A stretch of DNA of 64,000 nt from Kozakia baliensis. GTDB taxonomy: Bacteria > Pseudomonadota > Alphaproteobacteria > Acetobacterales > Acetobacteraceae. This document shows, piece by piece, positions 1,533 to 25,117 of this stretch. The stretch lies in contig NZ_CP014674.1 of NCBI RefSeq assembly GCF_001787335.1, forward strand, positions 1,382,501-1,446,500, read 5' to 3'. Position 1 is the stretch's first letter, and the number at the start of each line of letters is the position of its first letter. The notes below the pieces were generated by a model that saw only the letters and a program-made list of their open reading frames with translations, made no database searches and was not told the origin of the DNA. Position numbers and translations under genes: made by a program.

Positions 1533-2416
1533 GGCGCGTTTTCGCTGGCGTCGATGGCGGCGGAACAGGCACCCGCCTTCGTTTAACAGACGAAAGCGGC
1601 ACGGTTTTAGGCGTGGGCCAAGGAGGGCGCGCCAACATCGCAACCGATCCGCACGTTGCTTGGGCCTCTATTTGCACGGCACTGGATCAGGCTCTGGCTA
1701 GAGCAGAGTTAGACGAATTTTCTCTCCATTGGGCCTTCGGATTGGCCGGAGCCGAGGTCTCGGAAAAGCGGCAGCTTTTTTTGGAGATGACGCCGTCAGA
1801 CCTTCCACGGCCTATCGTGGTTACAGATGCCTACACGGCTTGCCTTGGCGCGCATGATGGAAAAGACGGTGCCATCATCGTAGTCGGGACCGGCTCCGTT
1901 GGTTATGCGATTCGAAGCGGGGCCGATGGCGTTCACACCCGGCGCGTAGGCGGCTGGGGTTTTCCGCAAGGCGATGAAGGAAGCGGCGCCTGGATCGGGC
2001 GAGAAGTGCTGGCGGCGATGCTCCGAGCGCATGACGGACGGCGCGTGCCAGATGCCTTGAGCAAGGCCTGCTGGGACTATCTGCAACAAGAGGCGGACCC
2101 GCTTGCCTGGGGCGTCAACAAGCGGGGAGGTGATTTTGCACGCTTGGCACCGCTGGCGATTCGTCAGGCGGAAGAAGGATGCATCGAAGCGCAACGCTTG
2201 TTGAGCGCTGCCGCGCGGGAGGTCGAAGTTTTGATAAGCGCGCTTATCGATGCGCCGGGTTTCTCGGATTTGCCCATCAGTGGGCTTGGGAGTCTTACGT
2301 CGATTTTAATGACGTATTTCGATAAAAGTCGAAAATACCTCTTCAAAGCACCTCTTGGCGATGCTGTAGATGGTGCCTTGCTCCTGGTGCATCGCGCCAT
2401 GAACGATCGAAAGTAA
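1529..2416 (+). CDS. Amino-sugar kinase, BadF/BadG/BcrA/BcrD ATPase family (GlcNAc or glucosamine kinase-like)
   Basis: An ASKHA-fold sugar kinase of 295 residues, likely phosphorylating N-acetylglucosamine or glucosamine in the cytosol. The phosphate-1 motif GVDGGGTGTRLRLTD is at the N terminus, the phosphate-2 region VGTGSVGYAIR near residue 110, and GDEGSGAWIGR near 150. I place the start at GTG 1529, whose bases overlap the metW stop (GTGA). An ATG at 1463 in the same frame would add 22 residues without family similarity and a long overlap with metW. Together with murQ and anmK at 14-16 kb it suggests recycling of cell-wall amino sugars. The exact substrate cannot be read from the sequence. 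Confidence 0.85.
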   Translation: MRRVFAGVDGGGTGTRLRLTDESGTVLGVGQGGRANIATDPHVAWASICTALDQALARAELDEFSLHWAFGLAGAEVSEKRQLFLEMTPSDLPRPIVVTDAYTACLGAHDGKDGAIIVVGTGSVGYAIRSGADGVHTRRVGGWGFPQGDEGSGAWIGREVLAAMLRAHDGRRVPDALSKACWDYLQQEADPLAWGVNKRGGDFARLAPLAIRQAEEGCIEAQRLLSAAAREVEVLISALIDAPGFSDLPISGLGSLTSILMTYFDKSRKYLFKAPLGDAVDGALLLVHRAMNDRK

Positions 2417-9992: not shown

Positions 9993-10006
9993 TTGATCGA
10001 CGTCAA
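9993..10006 (+). promoter_or_regulatory. FNR/CRP-family box upstream of ackA-xfp
   Basis: TTGATCGACGTCAA has the same half-sites as the box at 9814 (TTGAT and GTCAA, four-base spacer). Its centre is 63 bases upstream of the ackA start, placing a class II transcription start near 10041. Confidence 0.5.
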
Positions 10007-10062
10007 AGCATTGAGCTTCTTTAAAAGGCACAGTGCGATAACGACAGCATAGGAGACGATGA

Positions 10063-11268
10063 TTGGCACAAACGATTTTGACGTTGAACGCCGGGTCATC
10101 GAGCATAAAATTCGCGCTGTTCGATGCGGAAAAAAGAGAACCGCACCGCCTTCTTTCAGGGGAATTGGAGGGGATTGGAGAATGCCCGCATTTGCGTGTC
10201 AAAGACACGGAAGGCAAAGTTATTGCGGACGAAAATTGGGAGCATAACCAATCCCAAGATCCGCATGACGAACCGATGGCGGCTGTGATGCGCTGGCTGG
10301 CTTCGCATTACGGCAAAGGCACGGTGCAAGCGATCGGGCATCGTATCGTGCATGGTGGCCCCAAATTTCATCAACCGGTGAAGGTAACGCCCGAAATTTA
10401 TGATGAGCTTGCAGCGCTCACTCCTTTTGCGCCGCTCCATCAACCAAGTTGCGTCGGTCCCATCCGCGCGATTATGCGTCAGCGGCCGGATTTGCCGCAG
10501 ATCGCATGTTTCGATACGGCATTTCACTACACCATGCCGCCGATCGCCCATCGCATTGCCGTGCCCAATTCGTATGATCGCAAAGGCGTGCGACGTTACG
10601 GATTTCATGGTCTTTCCTATGAACATATCGCCCGCCGCCTCAAGCGTGAGCGCCCCGAGCTTGTGGGCGGGCGCGTTTTGGTAGCGCATGTCGGGAACGG
10701 GGCCAGCCTATGCGCACTGCGAGATGGTAAAAGCATCGCCACCACGATGGGATTCTCCGTTCTGGATGGCATGATGATGGGAACGCGGTGCGGCCATCTC
10801 GACCCAGGCGTTTTGCTTTACATGCTCAAGGAAGAACATCTTTCTCCTGATGAGGTGGAAAATCTTCTCTATCATCATGCCGGTTTGCTCGGCGTCTCTG
10901 GCGTTTCAAGCGACATGCGGGAATTGCGCCAGCAGAGCGATAAGCCGGATGTCGCGATGGCGCTTGAACTGTTCAGCTATCGTTTCGCGGAGCAAGCGGG
11001 TGCCATGGTGATGGCGCTGGGGGGATTGGATACGTTGATTTTCACCGCCGGGATTGGCGAACACGATGCCGCATTTCGGCAAGAATCCTGCAACCGTCTG
11101 GCATGGATGGGCATCGCGTTTGATGAAGCGGCCAACAAGGCGCATGCTCCCATCATCAGCAAGCCGGAGAGCCGCGTGACCGTTCTGGTCGTGCCGGCCG
11201 ATGAAGAAGCCTCCATTTTTCAACATGTTCAATCGGTTCTGACACAAGGAGATGAGAATGAGCGATAG
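10063..11268 (+). CDS. ackA: Acetate kinase
   Basis: Cytosolic enzyme converting acetyl phosphate and ADP to acetate and ATP, here acting on acetyl phosphate from the adjacent phosphoketolase. The 401 residues show the family signatures [17 protein letters not shown] at the N terminus and [12 protein letters not shown]-type [12 protein letters not shown] near 330, plus [11 protein letters not shown] and [15 protein letters not shown]. The start is TTG at 10063: AGGAGA is six bases upstream, and no in-frame ATG gives a complete N terminus. The 3' end overlaps the xfp start region, so the two are translationally coupled. The FNR-type box at 9993 suggests redox control. Confidence 0.95.
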
Positions 11269-13624
11269 CCACAGCACCCCACTTTCCGCTTCCGAGATTT
11301 CTCTTTTCGACAAATGGTGGCATGCCGCCAATTATCTTTCCGTGGCGCAGATATATCTGCTCGATAATCCCTTGCTGCGCGAACCGCTAAAGTTGGAGCA
11401 CACGAAGCCGCGTCTACTCGGCCATTGGGGCACAACACCCGGCCTGAACTTCATCTATCTGCATTTGAACCGCATCATCCGCGAACAAAATCCGAATGTT
11501 CTTTTTATCGCGGGGCCCGGTCATGGTGCGCCGGGGGTGGTGGCCAGCACCTATTTGGAAGGCACATATAGCGAGTATTTCCCCGAAGTCTCCCAAGATT
11601 TCCAGGGTCTGAAAAAACTCGTGAAGCAATTCTCGTTCCCCGGCGGTATCCCTAGCCATGCTGCGGCGACCACGCCGGGCTCAATCCATGAAGGCGGTGA
11701 ACTGGGATATTCCCTGTCTCATGCCTTTGGCGCTGTTTTCGATAATCCAGACTTGATCACGGCCTGCGTGGTAGGCGATGGCGAGGCGGAAACCGGACCG
11801 CTGGCAACCTCTTGGCACGGCAACAAATTCCTCGACCCGAAAACGGATGGCGCGGTACTGCCTATCCTGCATCTCAACGGTTACAAAATCGCCAATCCAA
11901 CGATATTGGCGCGTATCTCACCGGAAGAACTGACGGCGCTGCTCAAAGGATACGGCTACGATCCAATTCTTGTCGAAGGGCACGAGCCGGATCTGATGCA
12001 TCAGAAAATGGCCGTGGCGATGGACACGGCTTTCGCGCGCATCAAAGATATTCAGCACAAGGCACGCTCGGAGAACACCAGCGAGCGCCCGATTTGGCCG
12101 ATGATCATTTTGCGTAGCCCCAAAGGGTGGACCGGGCCGAAAACGGTGGATGGATTACGCACCGAGGGATACTGGCGGTCCCATCAAGTGCCGTTCAGCG
12201 ATCTAACCAAACCCGGCCATCTTGAACTGCTTTCGGAATGGTTGCTGAGCTACAAACCGGAAGAATTGTTCGACGAAAACGGCACGCTTAAAAAAGAAAT
12301 CGCCGCTTTAGCCCCCAAGGGTGACAAGCGTATGAGCGCGAATCCGCATAGCAATGGCGGCGCGCTCAAACGCGATTTGATCCTTCCGGATATCTCGGAA
12401 TACGCCTTCGACGTGAAAAATCCTGGCGAGGAGCATGGTGAAAGCACGCGCATCCTGGGAACATTTCTGCGCGATGTGATGAAAGCTAACCTCGCAGGCC
12501 GTAATTTCCGTGTTCTGGCGCCGGACGAGAACAACTCCAACCGTCTCAACGCCGTGCTGGACGCGACCAACCGAGCCTGGGACGCCATCACCTACGATTA
12601 TGACGATCACCTCGCGCCGGATGGGCACGTCATGGAAATCTTGAGCGAGCATACCTGTCAGGGTTGGCTGGAAGGTTATCTTCTCACCGGACGGCATGGT
12701 TTTTTCTCATGCTACGAAGCCTTCATCCATATTGTGGATTCGATGGTCAACCAGCACGCCAAATGGTTGAAAACCTCCAAGGAAGTGCCGTGGCGCCGCC
12801 CGATCGCATCTTTGAACTATTTGCTGACATCCCATGTCTGGCGGCAGGATCATAACGGCTTTAGCCACCAAGACCCTGGCTTTATCGACCATGTGGTCAA
12901 CAAGAAGGCCGATATCGCGCGCGTCTATCTCCCGCCAGATGCCAACACGTTGCTTTGCGTCGCCGATCACTGTTTGCGCAGCTGGGACCGGATCAACGTG
13001 ATCGTGGCTGGCAAGCAGCCGGAGCCACAATGGCTGGATATGGATACCGCGATTGCGCATTGCGAGCAGGGGATCGGCATTTGGGAATGGGCCAGCAACG
13101 ACAAGGACGGCGAGCCGGATGTCGTCATGGCTTGCGCAGGCGATGTCCCCACAATCGAGACGCTGGCCGCTGTCAAGTTACTGCGCCAGCACGTGCCAGA
13201 ATTGAAAATCCGCGTCATTAACGTGGTCGATCTGCTGACGCTAGAGTCCAAGCAACAACATCCGCATGGACTGGAAGACGCGGTTTTCGACAGCTTGTTC
13301 ACGCTCGACAAGCCGGTCATCTTCGCATTCCACGGCTATCCACAGCTTATTCATAAGCTGATCTATAAGCGTAAAAACTGCAGCAATTTCCACGTCCATG
13401 GCTTCCGAGAGGAAGGCACGACCACGACGCCGTTCGACATGGCCGTGCGCAATAATCTCGACCGCTTCCATCAGGTTTTGAATGTCATCAAACACGTGCC
13501 GAGCCTCGCGGTACGGGCGGCCTATGCCACGCAGGCAATCAACGACAAATTGATCGAACATAAGCGCTATGTGGCGCAATATGGTCAGGATCTGCCGGAA
13601 ATCCTCAACTGGACTTGGTCATAA
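11258..13624 (+). CDS. xfp: Xylulose 5-phosphate/fructose 6-phosphate phosphoketolase
   Basis: A thiamine diphosphate enzyme that splits xylulose 5-phosphate (and often fructose 6-phosphate) with phosphate to acetyl phosphate and glyceraldehyde 3-phosphate (or erythrose 4-phosphate). The 788 residues match full-length family members: [43 protein letters not shown] for Th[20 protein letters not shown], and [21 protein letters not shown] 11258 is preferred over ATG 11252 because AAGGAG (11246-11251) is then six bases away. It overlaps ackA by 11 bases. Phosphoketolase plus acetate kinase is an ATP-yielding bypass typical of acetic acid bacteria. Confidence 0.97.
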
Positions 13625-13636
13625 GGACATTGCGTC

Positions 13637-14443
13637 ATGGGTAAGGATATTCGCCTCGTATTGGCCGACGTCGATGGCACGCTCGTCACTAAGGAGAAAC
13701 TCCTGACCGAAAGAGCAATTGCCGCCGTTCATAAACTTCATGAACGCGGCATTCTCTTCGCCATTACGAGCGGGCGTCCTCCCAAAGGCATGGCGATGGT
13801 GGCCGAACCGCTCAAGATCGACCAGCCTATCGCCGGGTTCAATGGCGGCGTCATGGTCAAGCCGGACTGGACGGTTATCGAGACTAAGACACTTACGCCG
13901 GAACAGGCGCACACGGTGATCGGCATTATTCGCGATCACAAGGCCGATCCGTGGGTTTATACCGGCGAGGACTGGATCGTTGGAAATGTGGACGCGCCGC
14001 ATGTGGCGCGCGAGCAATGGACGGTGAAGTTTCCACCCAAAGTCGGCGATATCGCGGCGGATTTGAGCAATGTCGTCAAGATTACAGGAGTGAGCGACGA
14101 TCGCGATTTGATGAAGCGTTTGGAGCATGATTTGCAACAGGCGATGGGCAAGGAAGCCTCCGCGGCCTGCTCGCAACCTTATTATGTGGACGTCACCAAT
14201 AAAAACGCCAACAAAGGTGCGGTGGTCGAAACATTGGAGCGCTTAGTCGGCGTGCCCGCATCGCAGATGATGACCATGGGCGACCAACCCAATGACATCA
14301 ATATGTTCGTCAAAAGTGGCTTCTCGATTGCGATGGGGCAAGCCAACGACGAAGTGAAGGGGGCCGCGACCTACGTTACCGCCTCTAGCGAGGAAGAAGG
14401 TTTTGCCAAAGGAATCGACAAATACGTCCTTGGGGAGGAATGA
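13637..14443 (+). CDS. HAD-superfamily phosphatase, Cof/YidA type
   Basis: A 268-residue cytosolic phosphatase of the IIB HAD group, expected to act on sugar phosphates or similar small phosphomonoesters. Motif I is LADVDGTLVTKEK, motif II is FAITSGRPP, the conserved Lys lies in NKGAVVETL, and motif IV is MGDQPNDINMF, a slight variant of the usual GDxxNDxxM. It starts 12 bases after xfp and probably shares its transcript, which may mean it trims an overflow sugar phosphate; that is inference. The substrate cannot be read from sequence. Confidence 0.9.
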   Translation: MGKDIRLVLADVDGTLVTKEKLLTERAIAAVHKLHERGILFAITSGRPPKGMAMVAEPLKIDQPIAGFNGGVMVKPDWTVIETKTLTPEQAHTVIGIIRDHKADPWVYTGEDWIVGNVDAPHVAREQWTVKFPPKVGDIAADLSNVVKITGVSDDRDLMKRLEHDLQQAMGKEASAACSQPYYVDVTNKNANKGAVVETLERLVGVPASQMMTMGDQPNDINMFVKSGFSIAMGQANDEVKGAATYVTASSEEEGFAKGIDKYVLGEE

Positions 14444-14470
14444 TTTTTCCTTCTGAACTTGGCATAGTGC

Positions 14471-15379
14471 ATGACCATGAGCACTGAACTAGCCGCCACT
14501 GAAGGCGTCGACCCTCGTTATACCGATCTGGATATCTGGCCCACAGCTTCAATTCTGGATGCTTTGGGCGAAGCGCAGATGGCGGCCACGGCCGTTGTGC
14601 GTACCGCTGTGCCTGAAATAGAGCGCGTTGTGGAAGCCGCCGTGCCGAAGCTTCTTTCCGGCGGGCGGCTTTTCTATGTTGGAGCGGGCACATCGGGCCG
14701 GATCGGCTTACAGGATGGCGTGGAACTCGTGCCGACATTCGGTTGGCCGCCGGAGCGATTGGTGTTGCTGCTGGCGGGTGGCACGGGGGCCGTCTTTCAA
14801 GCCGCCGAAGGCGCGGAGGATGATGAAGATCAAGCGCGCACGGATATCCTCGCGCATGCTCCGGGTCCGAACGATGTCGTGCTGGGAATTGCCGCCAGCG
14901 GCGCGACGCCGTACGCCTGCGCCGCTATCAGCGTGGCACGCGAAAAAGGCAGCCTGACGGTTGGAATCAGTTGCAACGCGCAAGGGCGTTTGTTGCGGGT
15001 CTCCGAATTGGCGATCCGATTGATAACAGGGCCAGAGGTTGTTTCCGGCTCTACCCGCTTGAAAGCGGGCACGGCGCAAAAAGCCGCGCTTAATCTGCTT
15101 TCCACTACGTTGATGGCGCGCCTAGGGCATGTCTATCGTGGGTTGATGGTCGATATGCGCGTAACGAATGCCAAGTTGCAGCGCCGCGCCGTGCGTATGG
15201 TGCAGCAGCTTGCCGGAGGATCGGAAGAAGAGATCGTCGCGGCACTGCAAGAAACAGGCGGTAATGTGAAGCGTGCCGTTCTCCTTCGTCATGGACTAAG
15301 CCTGGCGGAAGCGGAGACGCGTCTGGACATGGCGGATGGAAGCTTGCGCACGGTGTTGGCTGATCTGCATCAATGTTGA
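14471..15379 (+). CDS. murQ: N-acetylmuramic acid 6-phosphate etherase
   Basis: Cytosolic enzyme that cleaves the lactyl ether of MurNAc 6-phosphate to GlcNAc 6-phosphate and D-lactate in peptidoglycan recycling. The SIS-fold signature GAGTSGRIGLQDGVELVPTF holds the catalytic Glu, and AAEGAEDDEDQ holds the second acidic residue. The C-terminal domain contains GSTRLKAGTAQKAALNLLST and MVDMRVTNAKLQRRAVRMV. 302 residues is a normal length. It overlaps anmK by seven bases, the partner that makes its substrate, so the call is secure. A second in-frame ATG at 14477 is an alternative start. Confidence 0.96.
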   Translation: MTMSTELAATEGVDPRYTDLDIWPTASILDALGEAQMAATAVVRTAVPEIERVVEAAVPKLLSGGRLFYVGAGTSGRIGLQDGVELVPTFGWPPERLVLLLAGGTGAVFQAAEGAEDDEDQARTDILAHAPGPNDVVLGIAASGATPYACAAISVAREKGSLTVGISCNAQGRLLRVSELAIRLITGPEVVSGSTRLKAGTAQKAALNLLSTTLMARLGHVYRGLMVDMRVTNAKLQRRAVRMVQQLAGGSEEEIVAALQETGGNVKRAVLLRHGLSLAEAETRLDMADGSLRTVLADLHQC

Positions 15380-16494
15380 ACATTATCGGTCTTATGAGCG
15401 GCACATCCCTCGATGGCGTGGATGCGGCGCTGATCGAGACGGATGGAGAAAGGATCGGTCGGCGTGGCCCGGTTTTAACGGTGCCATATTCCGAGGATTT
15501 ACGGGCACGTCTGCGCAAATTGCTAGATCTCGCCCCGAGCCTTCATGCCGATGACACCATGCTGCGCCAAGCGGAGCACGACTTGACCATTCGTCATGTC
15601 GAAGCGGTTCAGCAACTCTGCCAAAAAGCCGAAATTCAGCCGGATTTGATCGGCTTTCATGGGCAGACCATCCTTCATGCACCGCATGAGCGCCGAACAT
15701 GGCAAATCGGCGATGCCGCACTCTTGTCTCGCAAAACCGGATTGCCGGTGGTGCATGATTTTCGTAGCGCGGATGTGGCGGCAGGCGGGCAAGGAGCACC
15801 ATTGGTGCCGCTTTATCATGCAGCATTATTGAAAAACGAACTCAAACCCGTTGCGATTCTGAATATCGGCGGCGTTGCGAACATCACGCTGCTTGGTGAG
15901 AATGAAGCCGTCTATGCTTGCGATACCGGTCCCGGCAATGCGCTGCTGGATGACTGGGCCATGCGCCATACCGGACGACCTTACGATGAAAACGGAAAGT
16001 TGGCGCGAAAGGGCCGCGTGGAGGGTGCAATTCTTGAAAGTTTGCTCGCCGATCCGTTTTTTACGCTTCCGCCACCGAAATCACTGGATCGATTGACGTT
16101 TCATCGTGCCATGCGAGCGGTGGAGCATTTATCGCCCGAGGATGGGGCAGCGACATTGGCGGCTTTTACCATTGAGGCCATAGTACGCACGCCGATGCCT
16201 GAAAAGCCGCGTGCATGGTTCGTCGGCGGTGGCGGTCGAAGAAATCCGGTTCTCATGGAAGGCTTGGCAGCGCGACTTGCTGCGCCGGTATCAGCCGTTG
16301 AGGCTCTGGAATGGGATGGCGATGGGCTGGAGGCGGAATGTTTCGGCTTCCTCGCAGCGCGTTGCTTGCGCGGCTTGGCGATTTCTCAACCCTTTATCAC
16401 CGGAGTGCCGGAGGCGATGAGCGGCGGCAGACTGACCTGCTCCGATCTAACGCCCCCTCCATGGATGAGATACGGTATTACACAACCAACGTAA
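15373..16494 (+). CDS. anmK: Anhydro-N-acetylmuramic acid kinase
   Basis: Cytosolic kinase that hydrolyses and phosphorylates 1,6-anhydro-MurNAc to MurNAc 6-phosphate, the step before MurQ. The 373 residues carry GLMSGTSLDGVDAALIETDG at the N terminus, GFHGQTILHAP, LNIGGVANITLL, CDTGPGNALLDDW and the C-terminal GGGGRRNPVLMEGL. The start overlaps murQ by seven bases. The gene ends converging on the fluoride-channel fusion, overlapping it by 17 bases. Confidence 0.96.
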   Translation: MLNIIGLMSGTSLDGVDAALIETDGERIGRRGPVLTVPYSEDLRARLRKLLDLAPSLHADDTMLRQAEHDLTIRHVEAVQQLCQKAEIQPDLIGFHGQTILHAPHERRTWQIGDAALLSRKTGLPVVHDFRSADVAAGGQGAPLVPLYHAALLKNELKPVAILNIGGVANITLLGENEAVYACDTGPGNALLDDWAMRHTGRPYDENGKLARKGRVEGAILESLLADPFFTLPPPKSLDRLTFHRAMRAVEHLSPEDGAATLAAFTIEAIVRTPMPEKPRAWFVGGGGRRNPVLMEGLAARLAAPVSAVEALEWDGDGLEAECFGFLAARCLRGLAISQPFITGVPEAMSGGRLTCSDLTPPPWMRYGITQPT

Positions 16495-17671
16495 TACGGG
16501 GCTGAATCAGCACTGGGATGGGAGCATCTGCCAAGGTATCGGATAGATGCTTATCGAAACGCTGGATTTGAGATGGTAAGGTCAGAACGAGAAGATCGGC
16601 TTGTTTCTGCACGGCGATGTGCAAAAGCTGAGCAGCGGCATCTTCCTGGACGTTATCGAAAGGTTCGACGATTTGCGGCATGCGAACATCGCCGAGCGGT
16701 AACGGCCCCAAATGAATAGCAAAAACCTGATCCGGTTCCGCGAGCCATGGCGTGGATTGAATCAGGAGTGCATGAAGCCGCTCCTCGTTTTCCGCCGCCA
16801 AAGCAGCGCGGCAGCCGATCGGCCCATGATAATGCTCGGGCAGCAGCAAAATCGGGCAATGAGCGCGATGAAGCGCGGCGCGTAAACGCCCACGCGCCGC
16901 CGGTTGCGTAAGATCCGCATGCTCGAACGTCATGAGCTTTGCGTTGCGGGAATATTCCAGCACGGAGGCAAGGCCATCGCCTCGCACATCGATCCAGCGC
17001 TTTCTGGACGTGCCGTTTTTTTGAGAAACCCAGGCATTGAGTTCTTGTGAGATTTCTCCGTGCCATTGGCTGCGTTGGGCGATCAAAGCGGCCCGCCGTG
17101 CGGGAGACAATACCGTATCGAATGGCTCGACATCTCCCAACTCAGGACCGTCGATTGCCAGAAGGGTAACATCGTCATTGTGGTGCTGAGCCAAGCTGCG
17201 CACCGTTTCAAGAGTGCCGGGAGTTTGCGCTGGATCATGCAACGCAACGACGATGTGCGGAGCATTGTTATTGCTGGCAAGGCGTGAACCGCGTGTCGCC
17301 GTAGCGGCAGCATATCCGGCAAAAGTGCTGAGAAGGCAAAGCATGACGGAGAGCGCGACGTTTATAAAAGCGGCAACACCGCGCCCGTCACGCAACAAAT
17401 CCACCGTCTGCTGGCTGAAGGAAGAAAAAGTGGTGAAGCCGCCACAAATCCCGACCAGAATAAACGCGCGAATTTCAGGCGAGGCGGCGAAACGACCGTC
17501 GGATGCCGTCAGCATACCGACATAACCGATCACGAAGGAGCCGACGATATTGATGATGATCGTGGGCCAGGGAAGAGCGCTCCCGGTAATGGCGGGAAGG
17601 GAACTCGAGAGCCACGCGCGCAATATGCTCCCACAAGCTCCGCCAATCGCGATAAGAAGATATGTCGGCAA
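16478..17671 (-). CDS. crcB: Fluoride channel (CrcB/Fluc) fused to a C-terminal UspA-like region
   Basis: 397 residues, about three times the length of an ordinary Fluc subunit. Residues 1-125 are a complete four-helix CrcB domain: GGACGSILRAW, TIIINIVGSFVIGY (with the pore Asn) and GICGGFTTFSSFS (the phenylalanine/threonine track). It exports fluoride across the inner membrane as a dual-topology dimer. From about residue 138 a soluble region begins with PHIVVALHDPAQ and contains RAHCPILLLPEHYHG near 285 and QKQADLLVLTLPSQ...PIPVLIQPRI at the end, which resemble two UspA-type alpha/beta halves. The reading frame is continuous with no sign of a frameshift. I saw no fluoride riboswitch upstream. 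Nucleotide binding and regulation by the extra region are inference. Confidence 0.85.
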   Translation of the reverse strand: MPTYLLIAIGGACGSILRAWLSSSLPAITGSALPWPTIIINIVGSFVIGYVGMLTASDGRFAASPEIRAFILVGICGGFTTFSSFSQQTVDLLRDGRGVAAFINVALSVMLCLLSTFAGYAAATATRGSRLASNNNAPHIVVALHDPAQTPGTLETVRSLAQHHNDDVTLLAIDGPELGDVEPFDTVLSPARRAALIAQRSQWHGEISQELNAWVSQKNGTSRKRWIDVRGDGLASVLEYSRNAKLMTFEHADLTQPAARGRLRAALHRAHCPILLLPEHYHGPIGCRAALAAENEERLHALLIQSTPWLAEPDQVFAIHLGPLPLGDVRMPQIVEPFDNVQEDAAAQLLHIAVQKQADLLVLTLPSQIQRFDKHLSDTLADAPIPVLIQPRITLVV

Positions 17672-17725
17672 AAGAGACCCCTTGTGTCACAGTTCAGATG
17701 TTCAAATACGAAGCGAGTGAAAACA

Positions 17726-18361
17726 ATGATCGATCTTTATTATTGGCCCACTCCTAATGGCCATAAAATCACATTATTCCTCGAAGAAGCCGGAGTGCCA
17801 TATCGTATCGTGCCGGTTGATATCGGCAAGGGCGATCAATTCAAGCCGGATTTTCTTAAAATCTCGCCCAATAATAAAATGCCGGCGATTGTGGACTATG
17901 CGCCCGCCGATGGTGGAGAGGCGTTGAGCGTTTTCGAATCAGGCGAAATCCTGCTCTATCTGGCCGAAAAAACCGGGCTTTTTCTGCCGAAGGATTTACG
18001 CGGTCGCAAAACGGCTTTGGAATGGCTGTTCTGGCAGGTCGGTGGCCTTGGTCCGATGGCAGGGCAGAACCATCATTTCGCGTCGTACGCGCCAGAAAAA
18101 ATTCCTTATGCGATCGAGCGTTACCGCAATGAGACGCATCGGCTTTATGGCGTGATGGAAAAGCGGCTGAGCGAAAGCGCCTTTCTAGGCGGGCCGGAAT
18201 ACGGAATCGCGGATATGGCGTCGTATCCTTGGACACGAACCTGGGAGCAGCAAGGCATCGACCTCACCGAATTTCCCGGTGTCGCGCGTTGGCGCGAGGC
18301 CATTGAAGCGCGGCCCGCAACCGGGCGCGCGCTCGCAAAGGCGGATGAGGTGAAGCGCTAA
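17726..18361 (+). CDS. Glutathione S-transferase family protein (Ure2/YfcG-like)
   Basis: A 211-residue cytosolic thioredoxin-fold transferase or disulfide reductase. The N-terminal domain MIDLYYWPTPNGHKITLFLEE ends in NNKMPAIVDYAP with the cis-proline and ESGEILLYLAEKTG for glutathione gamma-Glu binding. The C-terminal helical domain includes FWQVGGLGPMAGQNHHF and GIADMASYPW, features of the YfcG/Ure2 group. Start at ATG 17726; the open frame runs 14 codons further upstream without family similarity. It diverges from the crcB fusion and converges on the dehydrogenase, whose stop lies one base away. Confidence 0.9.
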   Translation: MIDLYYWPTPNGHKITLFLEEAGVPYRIVPVDIGKGDQFKPDFLKISPNNKMPAIVDYAPADGGEALSVFESGEILLYLAEKTGLFLPKDLRGRKTALEWLFWQVGGLGPMAGQNHHFASYAPEKIPYAIERYRNETHRLYGVMEKRLSESAFLGGPEYGIADMASYPWTRTWEQQGIDLTEFPGVARWREAIEARPATGRALAKADEVKR

Positions 18362-18362
18362 T

Positions 18363-19136
18363 TTACCAGACGGTAAAGCCCGCATCCACATTGACGATGG
18401 CGCCGGTCATAAGGCTGGCGGCATCGGAGGCAAGGAAGTGCACGACGGAGGCCACTTCGTCAGGCTGGCCGACGCGCCCCATCGGGGTTCCGGCGATCCA
18501 GGCATCGTAAAGTTCCGGTTTTTCCATACCGAAGCGGGTGAGAGTCGTTTCGATATAAGTCGGAGCAACGGCATTGGCGCGAATGCCTTGCGTGGCCCAT
18601 TCTGCCGCGAGAGAACGGATATATTGGTGAACGCCCGCTTTGGAGGCGTTATAGGCAGCTTGCTGTTGCGGGCGGTTGACGATCAAGCCGGACATGGAGC
18701 CGATGGCCACGATCGCCCCGCGTTGTTGTTTGAGCATCACACGGCCAACGGCCTGGCAAGAGCGGAACATGCCGTTCAGATTGACGTCGATCTGCTTAAG
18801 CCACTGCTTCTCCGTCATGTCCTCGGCTTTAACCTCCGAGATACAAAGACCCGCGCTCGCAACGAGAATATCGATCTTACCTTCCTTGTTCGCCACGCTG
18901 TAAATGGCTTGATCGACACTTTCCGTCGACGTGACGTCTATGGCGATATTACCGGCATCATGGCCGATACCGCGCAATTCCTCCGCCGCCGATGCGGCGA
19001 GATCACCATCCAAATCGGCAAGAATGACGCGCGCGCCCGCTTCCGCTAGAGCCGTGGCGCAACAAAGGCCGATATTTTGCGCGCCACCAGTGATGATGGC
19101 GACGCGACCATCGAGGCGAAGTTTTTCCATATACAT
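18363..19136 (-). CDS. Short-chain polyol dehydrogenase (SDR family)
   Basis: A 257-residue NAD(P)-dependent oxidoreductase, last gene of the polyol uptake operon. The cofactor motif TGGAQNIG is at residues 16-23, DLDG fits NAD preference, the active-site Ser is in AIGSMSG, the YxxxK motif is YNASK, and the family ending DGxxxxW-like NVDAGFTVW is present. It most resembles D-arabitol/xylitol/sorbitol-type dehydrogenases. In context with an FGGY kinase of the D-ribulokinase kind, oxidation of D-arabitol or ribitol to D-ribulose is the best guess, but this is inference. Upstream AAGGAAA precedes the ATG. Confidence 0.85.
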   Translation of the reverse strand: MYMEKLRLDGRVAIITGGAQNIGLCCATALAEAGARVILADLDGDLAASAAEELRGIGHDAGNIAIDVTSTESVDQAIYSVANKEGKIDILVASAGLCISEVKAEDMTEKQWLKQIDVNLNGMFRSCQAVGRVMLKQQRGAIVAIGSMSGLIVNRPQQQAAYNASKAGVHQYIRSLAAEWATQGIRANAVAPTYIETTLTRFGMEKPELYDAWIAGTPMGRVGQPDEVASVVHFLASDAASLMTGAIVNVDAGFTVW

Positions 19137-19154
19137 TGGAATATTTCCTTAAAG

Positions 19155-20258
19155 TCAGGCAGCAAGCCGATGGCGGATACGCTTATTGATGGCCAAGCCT
19201 TGGTCGTTGAAGATGTGGCAATGCTCGGGTGGAATAGTGAAGGAGATCGGTGCGTCGATTTCACCGCCATGATCGCCATCCGTCTGGATGACGAGAAGCT
19301 GGTTGTCCGGCAGGCGAATATGAAGCTGCGTCAGAGCGCCCAACCGCTCCACGATCTGAATGACGCCATGTCCATCGCCGTTCGGGTCGATCAGAATATG
19401 TTCCGGGCGAATGCCGAGTGTTACTGGCGCTCCAGCAACAGAACCTTCGGCTTCCACCGGCACATGGATGGTTTGGCCGGTCGAGAGTTGCACTGAGGCG
19501 CCATATTCGTCCACCGTCGCGACGCTCGCAGGGAGGAAATTCATCGGCGGGGAGCCGATGAACCGGGCCACGAACAGATTGCGCGGGTGGTGATAGAGTT
19601 CCAATGGCGAGCCGACCTGCTCGACAATGCCTTTTTGCAGCACCACGATTTTATCGGCCATGGTCATGGCCTCGATCTGGTCATGCGTGACGTAGATCGT
19701 CGTGGCGTTGAGGCGGCGATGAAGCGTCGCCAGTTCCACGCGCATCTGGCCGCGCAAAGCGGCATCGAGGTTCGAGAGAGGCTCATCGAACAAGAAGACT
19801 TTCGGGTTACGCACGATGGCGCGCCCAATCGCCACACGTTGCCGTTGGCCGCCGGACAACTGGCCGGGCTTGTGTTTCAGATAAGGTTCCAGTTGCAGAA
19901 CGCGCGCGACATCCGTGATCTTCGTGCGCCGTTCCTGCTCGGGCATTCCGGCCAGTTTGAGGCCGAATTCCATGTTCTGGTAAACGTTCATATGCGGATA
20001 CAACGCATAGGATTGGAACACCATCGCCAGCCCGCGCTTGGCTGGTTCGATATCGTTCACACGCTTGCCGTCGATCAGCAAATCGCCGCTAGTGATATCT
20101 TCGAGCCCTGCGATCATGCGCAACAATGTGGATTTGCCGCAGCCGGACGGACCGACGAATACGACGAATTCCTTATCCTCAATCGAGAGCGAGACGCCCT
20201 TGATGATTTCTTCCGTCAGATAGGTTTTGTGCAGATCGTTGAGTTGGACGGTCGCCAT
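19155..20258 (-). CDS. ABC transporter ATP-binding protein, MalK/SmoK (polyol) type
   Basis: The 367-residue ATPase of a polyol importer, working on the inner face of the membrane with the two permeases upstream. Walker A is GPSGCGKSTLLRMIAG, the signature LSGGQRQRVAIGRA, and Walker B VFLFDEPLSNLDAALRGQ. The C-terminal TOBE/OB region with LGIRPEHILIDPNG marks the CUT1 (MalK/UgpC) group. ATG 20258 is preferred over the GTG just before it, because GAGG is then seven bases upstream. It lies between the dehydrogenase and the second permease in a compact operon. Confidence 0.93.
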   Translation of the reverse strand: MATVQLNDLHKTYLTEEIIKGVSLSIEDKEFVVFVGPSGCGKSTLLRMIAGLEDITSGDLLIDGKRVNDIEPAKRGLAMVFQSYALYPHMNVYQNMEFGLKLAGMPEQERRTKITDVARVLQLEPYLKHKPGQLSGGQRQRVAIGRAIVRNPKVFLFDEPLSNLDAALRGQMRVELATLHRRLNATTIYVTHDQIEAMTMADKIVVLQKGIVEQVGSPLELYHHPRNLFVARFIGSPPMNFLPASVATVDEYGASVQLSTGQTIHVPVEAEGSVAGAPVTLGIRPEHILIDPNGDGHGVIQIVERLGALTQLHIRLPDNQLLVIQTDGDHGGEIDAPISFTIPPEHCHIFNDQGLAINKRIRHRLAA

Positions 20259-20304
20259 CACACGGCCTCGTTATTGCGAAGAAAGAAAAGGAAAAAGCGA
20301 AGGC

Positions 20305-21132
20305 TCATTTCACGGCTCCGAACGTTAGGCCGCGAACCAATTGCTTCTGACTGATCCAGCCGAAAATCAGGATCGGGGCCACGGCGAGCGTGGAGGCCGC
20401 CGAGAGCTTACCGAAGAACAGACCTTCCGGTGAGGAAAAGGACGCAATGAAGGCGGCGAGCGGCGCTGCATTGGATGAGGTCAGGTTGAGAGACCAAAAC
20501 GCTTCGTTCCAGCACAGAATCAAGGAAAGCAATGCGGTGGAAGCAATGCCGGGCAGGGCGAGCGGCAACAATACCACCGTAATTTCCTGCCAACGATTGG
20601 CCCCATCCATACGCCCGGCTTCCAGGATCGGCATCGGCACTTCACGAAAGAACGTATAGAGCATCCAAACCACGATCGGCAGATTGGTGAGCATATCCAC
20701 GATCGCAAGTCCAGTGAGCGTGTCGAGCAAATGCGTGTTGCGCGCGATCAGATAAATCGGCACCAGAACGCCGACGGGGGGAAGCATGCGCGTGGAGAGC
20801 ATCCACAACAATGTGGCACGCGTGCGAGCCGTGGGCGCAAAGGCCATCGAGTAAGCGGCAGGAATGGCGAGCAGGAGGGCCACTCCCGTCGCGACGACGG
20901 AAATAACGACGGTATTGATCGTGAAGTGCCAATAATTGGCGCGTTCGAATACCTCGTTATAACTTTCTAGCGTCGGTTTAAAAATGAGATGCGGCGGTGT
21001 CGAAATCGCATCCACTTCGCTTTTGAAACCGGTGATGAACATCCAGAAAAGCGGAAAGAATATCCAGATCGCAATGGCCCAGCCGAGGAGACCGATCAGA
21101 ACGCCTTTGGTGCGGCTTCTTTTAATGGCCAT
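20305..21132 (-). CDS. Polyol ABC transporter permease (MalG/SmoG type)
   Basis: A 275-residue inner-membrane permease with six hydrophobic segments. The ABC-contact loop EAGRMDGANRWQEITVVLLP near residue 185 is the EAA motif. ATG 21132 (MAIKRSRTKG) is preferred: GGAGG lies in the 3' end of the preceding permease gene, only four bases of intergenic DNA remain, and the longer frame would overlap that gene by 50 bases. Confidence 0.92.
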   Translation of the reverse strand: MAIKRSRTKGVLIGLLGWAIAIWIFFPLFWMFITGFKSEVDAISTPPHLIFKPTLESYNEVFERANYWHFTINTVVISVVATGVALLLAIPAAYSMAFAPTARTRATLLWMLSTRMLPPVGVLVPIYLIARNTHLLDTLTGLAIVDMLTNLPIVVWMLYTFFREVPMPILEAGRMDGANRWQEITVVLLPLALPGIASTALLSLILCWNEAFWSLNLTSSNAAPLAAFIASFSSPEGLFFGKLSAASTLAVAPILIFGWISQKQLVRGLTFGAVK

Positions 21133-21136
21133 GGTT

Positions 21137-22033
21137 TCAGGCCTCCAGATTACGGGCAACGGCCCGCACGAGGAACGCGGCGACAATATTAGCGATGACG
21201 ATGGCGATCACGCCGCCAGCCGATGCTCCGCCGACATCGAATTGCAGCAATGCGCGAGAATAGATGAGGAAGGCCAAATTGGTGGAAGCCACACCGGGAC
21301 CACCTGCCGTCGTCACCGAGATTTCAGCGAAGATCGTCAACAGATAGATTGTCTCGATCATCACGACGACGGTGATCGCACGGCTGAGATGAGGCAGGAT
21401 GATGTAGCGAAACTGCGCAATGGCCCCGGCGCCATCCATACGCGCCGCCTCTTTCTGCTCGCTATCGAGCGATTGCACGGCCGTTAGCAAAATGAGCACG
21501 GCGAAAGGCAGCCACTCCCAGGCGACGATCATCATGATGGTCGCCATGGGAAAGCGTTGCAGCCAGTCGATCGGCGTTAGTCCCACCGCGCGCATCATCG
21601 ATGAATAAACACCGTAGATCGGGTGGAGCATCAAATTCTTCCATAGAAGCGCGGAGACTGTCGGCATCACGAAGAAAGGCGAGATGACGAGCACGCGGGC
21701 GATGCCGCGCCCGAAAAAATCCTGATCGTAGAGAACAGCCAGGAGGGTTCCGCCGCCGACGCTGATCGCCAATACGCCGACCACGAGGATCAGCGTATTG
21801 AGCAAGGACTGAAGAAAATCCGGATCAGTCAGAAGATACCAGTAGTTATTGATCCCGGCGAACCCTTGAAGCGTCGGGTCCACGAGATTGTAGTTACGAA
21901 ACGAGTACCACAAGGTCAGCAACAAGGGTACGATCGACCAGACCAGCAAGATCAGCACCGCCGGGGAAAGCAGCGCAAAACCTGCGCTGCGTTTGGGGCG
22001 GACCGTCGTAGTCGCGTGCATGACGGCTTCCAT
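21137..22033 (-). CDS. Polyol ABC transporter permease (MalF/SmoF type)
   Basis: A 298-residue inner-membrane permease of the CUT1 sugar/polyol family, with about six transmembrane helices and the EAA-like loop EAARMDGAGAIAQFRYIILP near residue 210. It pairs with the next permease to form the translocation channel. An in-frame ATG at 22021 is an alternative start. It begins 13 bases after the binding-protein gene. Confidence 0.92.
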   Translation of the reverse strand: MEAVMHATTTVRPKRSAGFALLSPAVLILLVWSIVPLLLTLWYSFRNYNLVDPTLQGFAGINNYWYLLTDPDFLQSLLNTLILVVGVLAISVGGGTLLAVLYDQDFFGRGIARVLVISPFFVMPTVSALLWKNLMLHPIYGVYSSMMRAVGLTPIDWLQRFPMATIMMIVAWEWLPFAVLILLTAVQSLDSEQKEAARMDGAGAIAQFRYIILPHLSRAITVVVMIETIYLLTIFAEISVTTAGGPGVASTNLAFLIYSRALLQFDVGGASAGGVIAIVIANIVAAFLVRAVARNLEA

Positions 22034-22046
22034 GAAAGTCTCTATC

Positions 22047-23372
22047 CTAGTGAGAGTAGCCGGATTGGCGCATGGTGCGCGTGACCGAACTTTGTGCCGA
22101 GGCCAACGCCTGATCGACCGTCACCTGGCCTGAAAGCGTGGCGGCGATCGTCTGCCCGACCTGCGTTCCAAGCGCTTGGAACTGAGGAATTCCGACGAAT
22201 TGTGCGCCACCATAGGGGCGAGGCTGTGCGGTCTGGCCGTTTGGATCGGCCGTTTCGATCGCGTGCTGCACGAAGGACGCGAACGGTGCGGCCTTCTGGT
22301 ATTCAGGCGTCTTGTAAGTGGAAGCACGCGTCCCTGCCGGAACCGCAACCCAACCCTTCCGCTCCGCCACGAGCTTCACGTATTCTTTGGAAGTCGCCCA
22401 AGTGATGAAAGTCTGTGCGTCTTCCGTATGTTTGGAACTGGCAGGAATGGCGAGGTTCCAACTCCACAGCCATGTCGGGCCTTTGCCGTAAGCTCCCTTG
22501 GGTGAAGGAGCGAACCCGACCTTATCGGCAACTTGCGATTGTTTGGGATCGAACAGAAGGCCCCCGGCAACTGTTGAATCAATCCACATGCCACAGTGAC
22601 CGCTAGCAAACAGGGCTAGATTTTCATTGAAGCCGTTGGACGTGGCGCCGGGAGGGCCATCTTCGCGCAGAGCGGATACATACCAATTTATCGCAGCCTT
22701 CCAGGCTGGGCTATCGATCAGCGGCTTCCAGCCCATCCCGAACCATTGGCCGCCGAACGTGTTCACCAGCGAGGTGACATAGGCCATGTTTTCGCCCCAG
22801 CCCGGTTTGCCGCGCAGGCAGATACCGTAAACCTGGTTCGATTTATCCGTAATCTTGTCCGCAAAGCCACGGATCTCATCGTAGGTCGGGCTTTCCGGCA
22901 TAGTCAGGCCCGCTTTTTTGAACAGGTCGGTCCGGTAATAGGTCATGACGCTTTCCGCATAGAACGGAAGCGCATAGATTTGCCCATTGACGGATAGGCC
23001 CTGGCGCACGGCCGGAAGGATATCCTGCATGTCGTAATCCGCAGCGGGATGAAGCTCGGCAAGCCATTTTTGCTTGGCCCAGATCGGCACTTCGTAATTG
23101 CCGATGGTCATAATATCGAATTGTCCCGCACCCGTGGCGATATCGGTGGTGACGCGTTGGCGCAGAACGTTTTCTTCCAACGTCACCCATTTCAGGTGAA
23201 TGCCAGGGTGGGTTTTTTCAAATTCGCTGGAAAGCTGGCGCATGATGATCATGTCGCCATTATTGACGGTTGCGATCGTCAGTTCGCTTTCAGCGTGTGC
23301 TGCTGCCAGGCATGTACCCATCGTCAGCGCGGCGAGGGACGCAATACGAAGTTTGTTTTTCAAATGGGCCAT
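22047..23372 (-). CDS. Periplasmic polyol/sugar-binding protein of the ABC transporter
   Basis: A 441-residue solute-binding protein with a clear Sec signal peptide (MAHLKNKLRIASLAALTMG ... AAAHAE). The mature start ELTIATVNNGDMIIMRQLSS and the segment FDIMTIGNYEVPIWAKQKWL are typical of polyol (sorbitol/mannitol) binding proteins of cluster B. It captures substrate in the periplasm for the two permeases. I start at ATG 23372, where the signal peptide begins and GAGG is upstream; the open frame continues 30 codons further without similarity. Confidence 0.9.
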   Translation of the reverse strand: MAHLKNKLRIASLAALTMGTCLAAAHAESELTIATVNNGDMIIMRQLSSEFEKTHPGIHLKWVTLEENVLRQRVTTDIATGAGQFDIMTIGNYEVPIWAKQKWLAELHPAADYDMQDILPAVRQGLSVNGQIYALPFYAESVMTYYRTDLFKKAGLTMPESPTYDEIRGFADKITDKSNQVYGICLRGKPGWGENMAYVTSLVNTFGGQWFGMGWKPLIDSPAWKAAINWYVSALREDGPPGATSNGFNENLALFASGHCGMWIDSTVAGGLLFDPKQSQVADKVGFAPSPKGAYGKGPTWLWSWNLAIPASSKHTEDAQTFITWATSKEYVKLVAERKGWVAVPAGTRASTYKTPEYQKAAPFASFVQHAIETADPNGQTAQPRPYGGAQFVGIPQFQALGTQVGQTIAATLSGQVTVDQALASAQSSVTRTMRQSGYSH

Positions 23373-23458
23373 TGATAAGGACCTCGTTGAGGACTCGCCA
23401 TGTATGGGAGGCCTACGATTGAATGAAATTCTGAATAAATCCGCTATTGGCGGTGTGG

Positions 23459-25117
23459 TCATGAAGAAGCGGGAACGAGCGCCTCCTTATGAATGGCGTC
23501 ATACATATGGCGCCGATAGCGGAGTTGATCGTCATGCATGGCGCGAAACACGTCCATCTTCGCGTCATGAAACGACCGGGTTTGCGGGTCCGGTCGAATT
23601 TCGGAGCCGGCTTTGCTCATGCGCGCCATCGCGCTCCGCAAATCCGGGTAGGCCTGCGCCGCGACGGCACCCAAAATGGCCGCACCAAGCAAGACGGCGT
23701 CCGGCTCTTGGGGCAGCAGAATGCGGCACCCTGTCGCGTTGGCATGTTCGCGCAGGAAGATCGGGTTTTTGGTGCCGCCTCCCGTCGCAAGGATCGTATC
23801 GATATGGTACCCTTGCGCGTTCAGGGCGTCGATAATATCGCGCGTGCCGTAAGCGATGCCTTGAATCGTCGCGAGATATAGCTGCGCCAGATCGTCTTTC
23901 GTCGCGGAAAGCGTCAAACCCGAGATCATGCCGCGCGAGAGCGGGTCGGCATAAGGTGAGCGATTGCCGTGGAAATCGGGAAAGACATGCAGATCGGCCG
24001 TCGTCGCGCCTGGTGCGTGTTCTTGTTCGCTTTCCTTAATACGCGCATTCAGCAGATCATAGACTGTCGTGTCCTCTTCCTTAGCCTGTTGCGCCAGAGA
24101 AGGGCCTTGAGCGTGGCTTTCAATAATGAAATCCACCAGCGATCCGACAGCGGATTGCCCGGCTTCGTTCAGCCACATATTCGGGATCATCGCTTCGGAA
24201 TACGGACCCCAAACGCCTTTGACGAAACGCGGTTCACGCGAGATCGCCATATGGCAACTTGATGTGCCTCCAATGAGCGCAACACTGTGGTTTAGCGCTT
24301 CATCGTGCAATTTATCGCCGGAGGCAGCGCCCAACAAACCAATGCCGCCCGCATGCGCGTCAATCGCGGAAACGCCCACGGGAATGCCCGGCTTCAACCC
24401 CAGTTCGGCAGCAGCCTCCAGGGTAAGACCCTGGCCGACGATTCCGCCGAGCGGTTTGATCTCTTGCCCGATCCGGCGATAATTTTCGGAAACGAGTTCT
24501 TCCAAACCGATAGCTTTGAAATAGGAGTCATCCCAGCGTTTTTCGTGCGCGAGATACGTCCATTTGCAAACGGTCGAACAGCAGGAACGAGAGTCGGTGC
24601 TTGTCGCTCGCCATGTCAGGAAATCGGGAAGATCGAAAAAGTAACCTGCTTTTTCGAAAGTCTCGGGTAAATGACGTTTGAGCCACAGAAGCTTCGGCGT
24701 CTCCATTTCCGGAGAAATCGTGCCGCCGACATAGCGCAGAACGTCATAATGCCCGCGATTGATTTCCTCCGCTTCCGCCAAAGCGCGGTGATCGGCCCAC
24801 AGAATGATATTCTGCTCCGGCGCGCCATGCGGATCGATCGATAAGCTGTTCCCGCTGGAATCCAGAACGACGAGAGAGCACGTGGCGTCGAATCCAATTC
24901 CTCGAATGGTAACGGGTTCGCGCAGTTTGGACATCGCGCCTCGAACGCTATGGCAGACCGCATGCCAGATACCGTCCGACGATTGTTGAGCGAAATCCGG
25001 GGCAGGGTGCCACGTACGGATAGGCGTTACGCTTGCAGCAAGTTTCGTACCGTCGAGAGAGAAGATTCCAGCACGGGCGCTTCCCGTCCCGACATCCACT
25101 CCAATTACTGCGTCCAT
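23459..25117 (-). CDS. FGGY-family pentulose kinase (D-ribulokinase-like)
   Basis: A 552-residue sugar kinase, first gene of the polyol operon. The N-terminal phosphate motif is IGVDVGTGSARAGIFSLDG, the FGGY signatures appear as NIILWADHRALAEAEEIN, ETPKLLWLKRHLP and the C-terminal ATGGGTKNPIFLREHANATG. The long form with CCSTVCKWTYLAHEKRW resembles the D-ribulokinase/FGGY-domain group more than xylulokinase. The expected reaction is D-ribulose plus ATP to D-ribulose 5-phosphate. Start at the ATG of MDAVIGVDVG; a GTG five codons upstream is less likely. Substrate identity is inference from family and from the adjacent polyol dehydrogenase. Confidence 0.88.
   Translation of the reverse strand: MDAVIGVDVGTGSARAGIFSLDGTKLAASVTPIRTWHPAPDFAQQSSDGIWHAVCHSVRGAMSKLREPVTIRGIGFDATCSLVVLDSSGNSLSIDPHGAPEQNIILWADHRALAEAEEINRGHYDVLRYVGGTISPEMETPKLLWLKRHLPETFEKAGYFFDLPDFLTWRATSTDSRSCCSTVCKWTYLAHEKRWDDSYFKAIGLEELVSENYRRIGQEIKPLGGIVGQGLTLEAAAELGLKPGIPVGVSAIDAHAGGIGLLGAASGDKLHDEALNHSVALIGGTSSCHMAISREPRFVKGVWGPYSEAMIPNMWLNEAGQSAVGSLVDFIIESHAQGPSLAQQAKEEDTTVYDLLNARIKESEQEHAPGATTADLHVFPDFHGNRSPYADPLSRGMISGLTLSATKDDLAQLYLATIQGIAYGTRDIIDALNAQGYHIDTILATGGGTKNPIFLREHANATGCRILLPQEPDAVLLGAAILGAVAAQAYPDLRSAMARMSKAGSEIRPDPQTRSFHDAKMDVFRAMHDDQLRYRRHMYDAIHKEALVPASS

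Follow-up and report, generated by a model that had tools for sequence, protein, structure and literature searches.

Flucs are textbook minimal, ungated dual-topology channels. The prokaryotic representatives known so far consist of 120–130 residues and lack a soluble domain. Functional Flucs are antiparallel dimers, engineered parallel versions are minimally active and the Flucs studied to date are constitutively open (PMC3755343). In Enterobacter cloacae FRM, crcB and a USP gene are both under fluoride riboswitch control, but they remain separate, unfused genes of one operon together with ppaC, eno, and gpmA, and fluoride raises expression of uspA, which is transcribed together with crcB, 120-fold (PMC5533749). 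Membrane transporters carrying a C-terminal tandem USP-like domain are represented by KCC1-4, NKCC1, and NCC. Their membrane domain is unrelated to Flucs and their tail is cytosolic; the likeness is one of shared plan and not demonstrably one of common descent.

The DNA analyzed here (the window) is a 64,000-nucleotide stretch of the Kozakia baliensis contig NZ_CP014674.1. It contains a gene that combines both elements in one protein, with about 260 residues in addition to a Fluc of conventional size (Table 1). The TTG start codon is located at 17671, the stop codon at 16478–16480, and there are no internal stops. The uninterrupted frame, the coordinates, and the length given in a preliminary description of this DNA were reproduced, and the strand, which had been left unstated, is the minus strand. 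At its 3' end the gene overlaps by 17 nt (16478–16494) with the 3' end of a convergent anmK-like gene (15373–16494, plus strand). When the linker was scanned for a start codon with a ribosome site, none was detected and no second product was evident; synthesis of a free USP from an internal start was rejected on these grounds.

Table 1. Features of the crcB-usp fusion gene (positions in the window)
Feature	Positions	Strand	Basis and remarks
crcB-usp fusion gene	16478..17671	minus	397 aa, TTG start; full-length homologues
Shine-Dalgarno-like AAGGGG	17678..17683	minus	6 nt 5' of TTG start, from sequence
Fluc/CrcB channel domain, residues 1–128	17288..17671	minus	Pfam and predicted structure; Fluc-Ec2 match
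Linker, residues 129–137	17261..17287	minus	Low pLDDT; R127 and R130 just past TM4
First USP-like half, residues 138–278	16838..17260	minus	Predicted structure; without nucleotide loop
Second USP-like half, residues 279–397	16481..16837	minus	GAYxH...GGxT loop of relatives lost here

For the channel part, residues 5–120 matched the CrcB family PF02537 with an E-value of 2e-26 (92.6 bits, cut-off 32.9), and TIGR00494 was matched with a score of 85.9 (cut-off 80.45). The protein as a whole departs from the usual, though not obligatory, length of prokaryotic Flucs. We modeled it as a monomer with AlphaFold2 using a 43-row alignment (pLDDT 87.5, pTM 0.84), and structural comparisons were carried out with Foldseek and VIA-align. 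The predicted channel helices (2–29, 35–54, 65–79/82–94 as broken TM3, 98–128) form the four-helix Fluc fold. In the model, residues 1–128 superimposed on Fluc-Ec2 (5A43) with a Z-score of 16.6 and an rmsd of 1.9 Å over 122 residues, and Fluc-Bpe (5NKQ) was also matched; the broken TM3 and N41, F82, and F85 are shared with these structures. The latter residues, which align to N41, F80, and F83 of Fluc-Ec2, were invariant in 17 fused forms and correspond to the pore residues, a fluoride-coordinating Asn and two Phe (PMC5636608). Thus, the family matches and the predicted fold bear out the proposal that the channel domain is complete.

The C-terminal part was less readily recognized by family profiles. 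In the window protein, no Pfam or NCBIfam family scored above its cut-off in this region; Usp was matched only with an E-value of 0.47, and a GGDEF_2 match (E-value 0.29) was taken as chance. Among 17 fused homologues, Pfam detected CrcB in all 17 and Usp in 13 at an E-value of 1 or below (best E-value 1e-13), and a PDB search with a profile built from the fused set retrieved chains of Flucs as well as of USPs. A scan of the contigs of the genomes with the window tail as query recovered no relatives. In the predicted structure, residues 139–276 and 289–390 form two alpha/beta USP halves, and residues 138–391 matched the tandem USPs TTHA0350 (3AB7/3AB8, Z 18.4), Rv2623 (3CIS, Z 16.8), and E. 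coli UspE (5CB0, Z 16.7), which share the two-half fold. Sequence identity to these proteins is 11–18%, and the tail differs from them by its attachment to a channel and by the missing classical ATP motif. The fused relative L034 was predicted, also as a monomer, to adopt the same fold (pLDDT 90). The preliminary description had suggested two UspA-like halves and had named the absence of a USP fold after residue 135 as the finding that would speak against them; the structure prediction contradicts such an absence and indicates a tandem USP.

To define the distribution of this architecture, we counted matches or open frames that cover both parts, and on this basis fused genes occur in 18 of the 298 Acetobacteraceae genomes sampled, one gene being cut by a contig end (G145) and two having shortened tails (L012, L025). 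These 18 genomes span 12 genera and include Tanticharoenia sakaeratensis and Endobacter medicaginis. The form of the latter (L012/L036) comprises 316 amino acids, lacks the second USP half, and is preceded by a fluoride riboswitch 21 nt upstream. When 385 genomes sampled across the class were searched for matches over both parts at E ≤ 1e-40, no fusion beyond that of the window was found, which leaves room for rare fusions outside the family. A sequencing or assembly artefact joining two genes has practically no chance of being correct. Three genomes (G113, G136, G252) do carry an in-frame stop between the two parts, as a split pair would, but the fusion recurs throughout the 18 genomes and 12 genera, including one single-contig genome. 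Artefact and frameshift were therefore rejected, and the idea that the two parts always exist as separate genes and were joined here by error is contradicted.

In relatives, the two parts frequently occur as neighbors. A crcB gene may be followed by usp with a 4-nt overlap or gaps of 3–27 nt, usp precedes crcB in Acetobacter, Gluconacetobacter, and Komagataeibacter, and in other relatives the genes lie back to back. When loci were retrieved via the channel part only, a USP was adjacent or fused in 15 of 62, a few of which were near-identical. In Crenalkalicoccus roseus (L030/L054), an enolase-like gene and two tandem-USP genes come, in this order, after crcB, an arrangement that resembles a fluoride-resistance cluster. 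In the three genomes with an in-frame stop, both parts share one frame with this single stop between them, which is the step one would expect prior to fusion. A tree of the channel domains required five changes of the fused label, four of them forced by supported branches, and the fused L023 and L025 were placed beside the split L026, away from the main fused group. Several independent fusions are likely on the basis of this tree, the alternative being a single gain followed by losses. The fusion may have arisen when a translationally coupled crcB-usp operon lost the stop codon of crcB, an event that probably occurred repeatedly.

A link to fluoride is suggested by the regulatory elements. Of the 17 fused genes scanned, 9 are preceded by the fluoride riboswitch RF01734 at a distance of 21–98 nt, and a tenth is separated from such an upstream element by one gene. 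The element also precedes several split crcB/usp pairs. Since riboswitches precede fused genes, the USP part is tied to the fluoride response. That this tie is independent of fusion can be seen on contig C2 of the genome from which the window derives (L001, 3627–6971). Here, crcB and a tandem usp are arranged back to back, and a separate fluoride riboswitch precedes each of them (1944–2009, minus strand; 2187–2247, plus strand). This locus is 99% identical to the conjugative plasmid pGOX1 of Gluconobacter oxydans 621H, and look-alike loci are present in several Acetobacter (L040–L043). At L023, a gene for a membrane protein of about 300 residues (336–1283) is located between a fluoride riboswitch (363–425) and the fused gene and is possibly another fluoride gene. 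No RF01734 element was detected near the window gene (window positions 10000–25000) or in L002, nor at L005, which harbors the nearest homologue, or at the Tanticharoenia locus L009.

As to the nucleotide-binding loop, the strict motif G-x2-G-x9-G-[ST], which marks only the ATP-binding subclass of USPs, was absent from all fused and partner USPs examined. A remnant (GAYxHx...GGxT) persists in most of them and has been lost in the window protein, L005, and L009. The earlier remark that the classical UspA loop is not clearly preserved was thus correct and applies to the whole group. Judged from these sequences, nucleotide sensing through the classical loop is unlikely in the window protein, and because both the strict loop and the remnant are missing, ATP gating is not the first guess. 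Since the riboswitch and the loop remnant are both missing, the window copy is probably constitutive.

Taken together, we consider it probable (about 0.75) that the gene product is a Fluc/CrcB subunit with a covalent C-terminal tandem USP, its fluoride-stress partner in relatives; this estimate refers to identity and fluoride link. Two observations count against this reading: no riboswitch was detected at the window copy, and E. cloacae strains lacking uspA, crcB, or both grew at 1,000 mg/L fluoride with a common MIC of 3,000 mg/L (PMC5533749). The channel part would form an antiparallel dimer and export fluoride in the manner established for Flucs. This raises a problem of topology. If the fused proteins are channels, either their subunits would have to insert both ways and expose the USP on each side of the membrane, or part of the tails would have to be removed. 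The fused gene was the only CrcB found in 14 of the 18 carrier genomes (6 of these 14 are at least 99% complete and several others are incomplete assemblies), and in a fifteenth genome both copies are fused. Since a CrcB other than the fused protein is usually missing, we propose, at no better than even odds, that the subunits insert in both orientations with the USP exposed on both faces or trimmed from one. The more specific version, in which every subunit of a dual-topology channel keeps its tandem USP, one cytosolic and one periplasmic, so that fluoride export would be coupled to sensing or protective functions on each side of the membrane, is rather doubtful. The USP part may act as a tethered accessory with a role in stability, assembly, or local stress and not as a classical ATP-dependent gate; this assignment, again at best an even bet, was selected from functions between which the data do not discriminate.

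An alternative solution of the topology problem is that the tail fixes its subunits in the termini-in orientation via extra arginines after TM4, with proteolytic short products or unfused CrcB supplying the opposite orientation, which would give asymmetric channels with cytosolic USP only. Fused forms carry 2.17 K/R just past TM4 vs. 0.81 in unfused ones and their mean termini-in bias is +1.67 vs. about 0, but the corresponding p-values (5e-6 and 9e-7) are overstated since the sequences are related, independent lineages are few, and unfused tails are often short. We take this small difference as a hint that the fused forms favor termini-in. The genome containing the window also encodes an unfused CrcB on contig C2, a candidate partner, and a broken third copy (L003, contig C1 near 1095497). 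The latter is interrupted by an in-frame TGA and an IS3-like element, and a phosphoglycerate-mutase-like gene is divergent from it, with a fluoride riboswitch at 1314–1377 on the minus strand. Asymmetric channels are nevertheless unlikely, because a second CrcB was not found in the 14 single-CrcB genomes and no second product of the window gene is evident. That the USP part senses a ligand in the cytosol and thereby gates or modulates fluoride export, like a transporter regulatory domain, as implied by the preliminary description, appears improbable. This function would fit transporters with C-terminal USP-like domains, and in our model residues 136–397 matched the cytosolic domains of KCC/NKCC cotransporters with Z-scores of 10.6–12.2; a dedicated partner under common fluoride riboswitch control also suggests a functional link. 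However, the constitutively open state of Flucs, the absence of the strict loop from every member with loss of its remnant in the window clade, and the conflict between all-cytosolic tails and antiparallel dimers speak against it. A cytosolic sensor gating the channel remains a conjecture because antiparallel dimers of fused subunits would either place the USP on both sides or lose some tails. What holds of the earlier interpretation is a single gene with a complete Fluc and a tandem USP, a real fusion that is unusual for the family; an entirely cytosolic tail clashes with the antiparallel dimer unless tails are trimmed or a second CrcB is available, and loop-based nucleotide sensing is unlikely.

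We regard it as similarly improbable that the tail is a decaying passenger, an operon neighbor fused by chance and tolerated without function in the window lineage. Such decay would be consistent with the loss of riboswitch and loop remnant in the window copy, with the truncated tail of the 316-residue relative, and with the faster evolution of the USP half (42% identity to the nearest homologue vs. 74% for the channel; pN/pS 0.56 vs. 0.26). In contrast, the frame has stayed open and foldable across genera, and pN/pS was below 1 in every pair (channel 0.19–0.35, USP part 0.40–0.81), although these values are rough because synonymous sites are near saturation. Both parts thus look constrained by this measure.

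Among open-access papers, we found none describing a CrcB-USP fusion, and our best call is a genuine, apparently undescribed Fluc variant to which the fluoride-stress USP partner is covalently attached. A conserved natural fusion in genomes without another Fluc makes it possible to test directly how far a bulky tail is compatible with dual topology and whether fluoride export can be regulated post-translationally. For the loosely understood USPs, it points to a particular partner and to fluoride as a particular stress.
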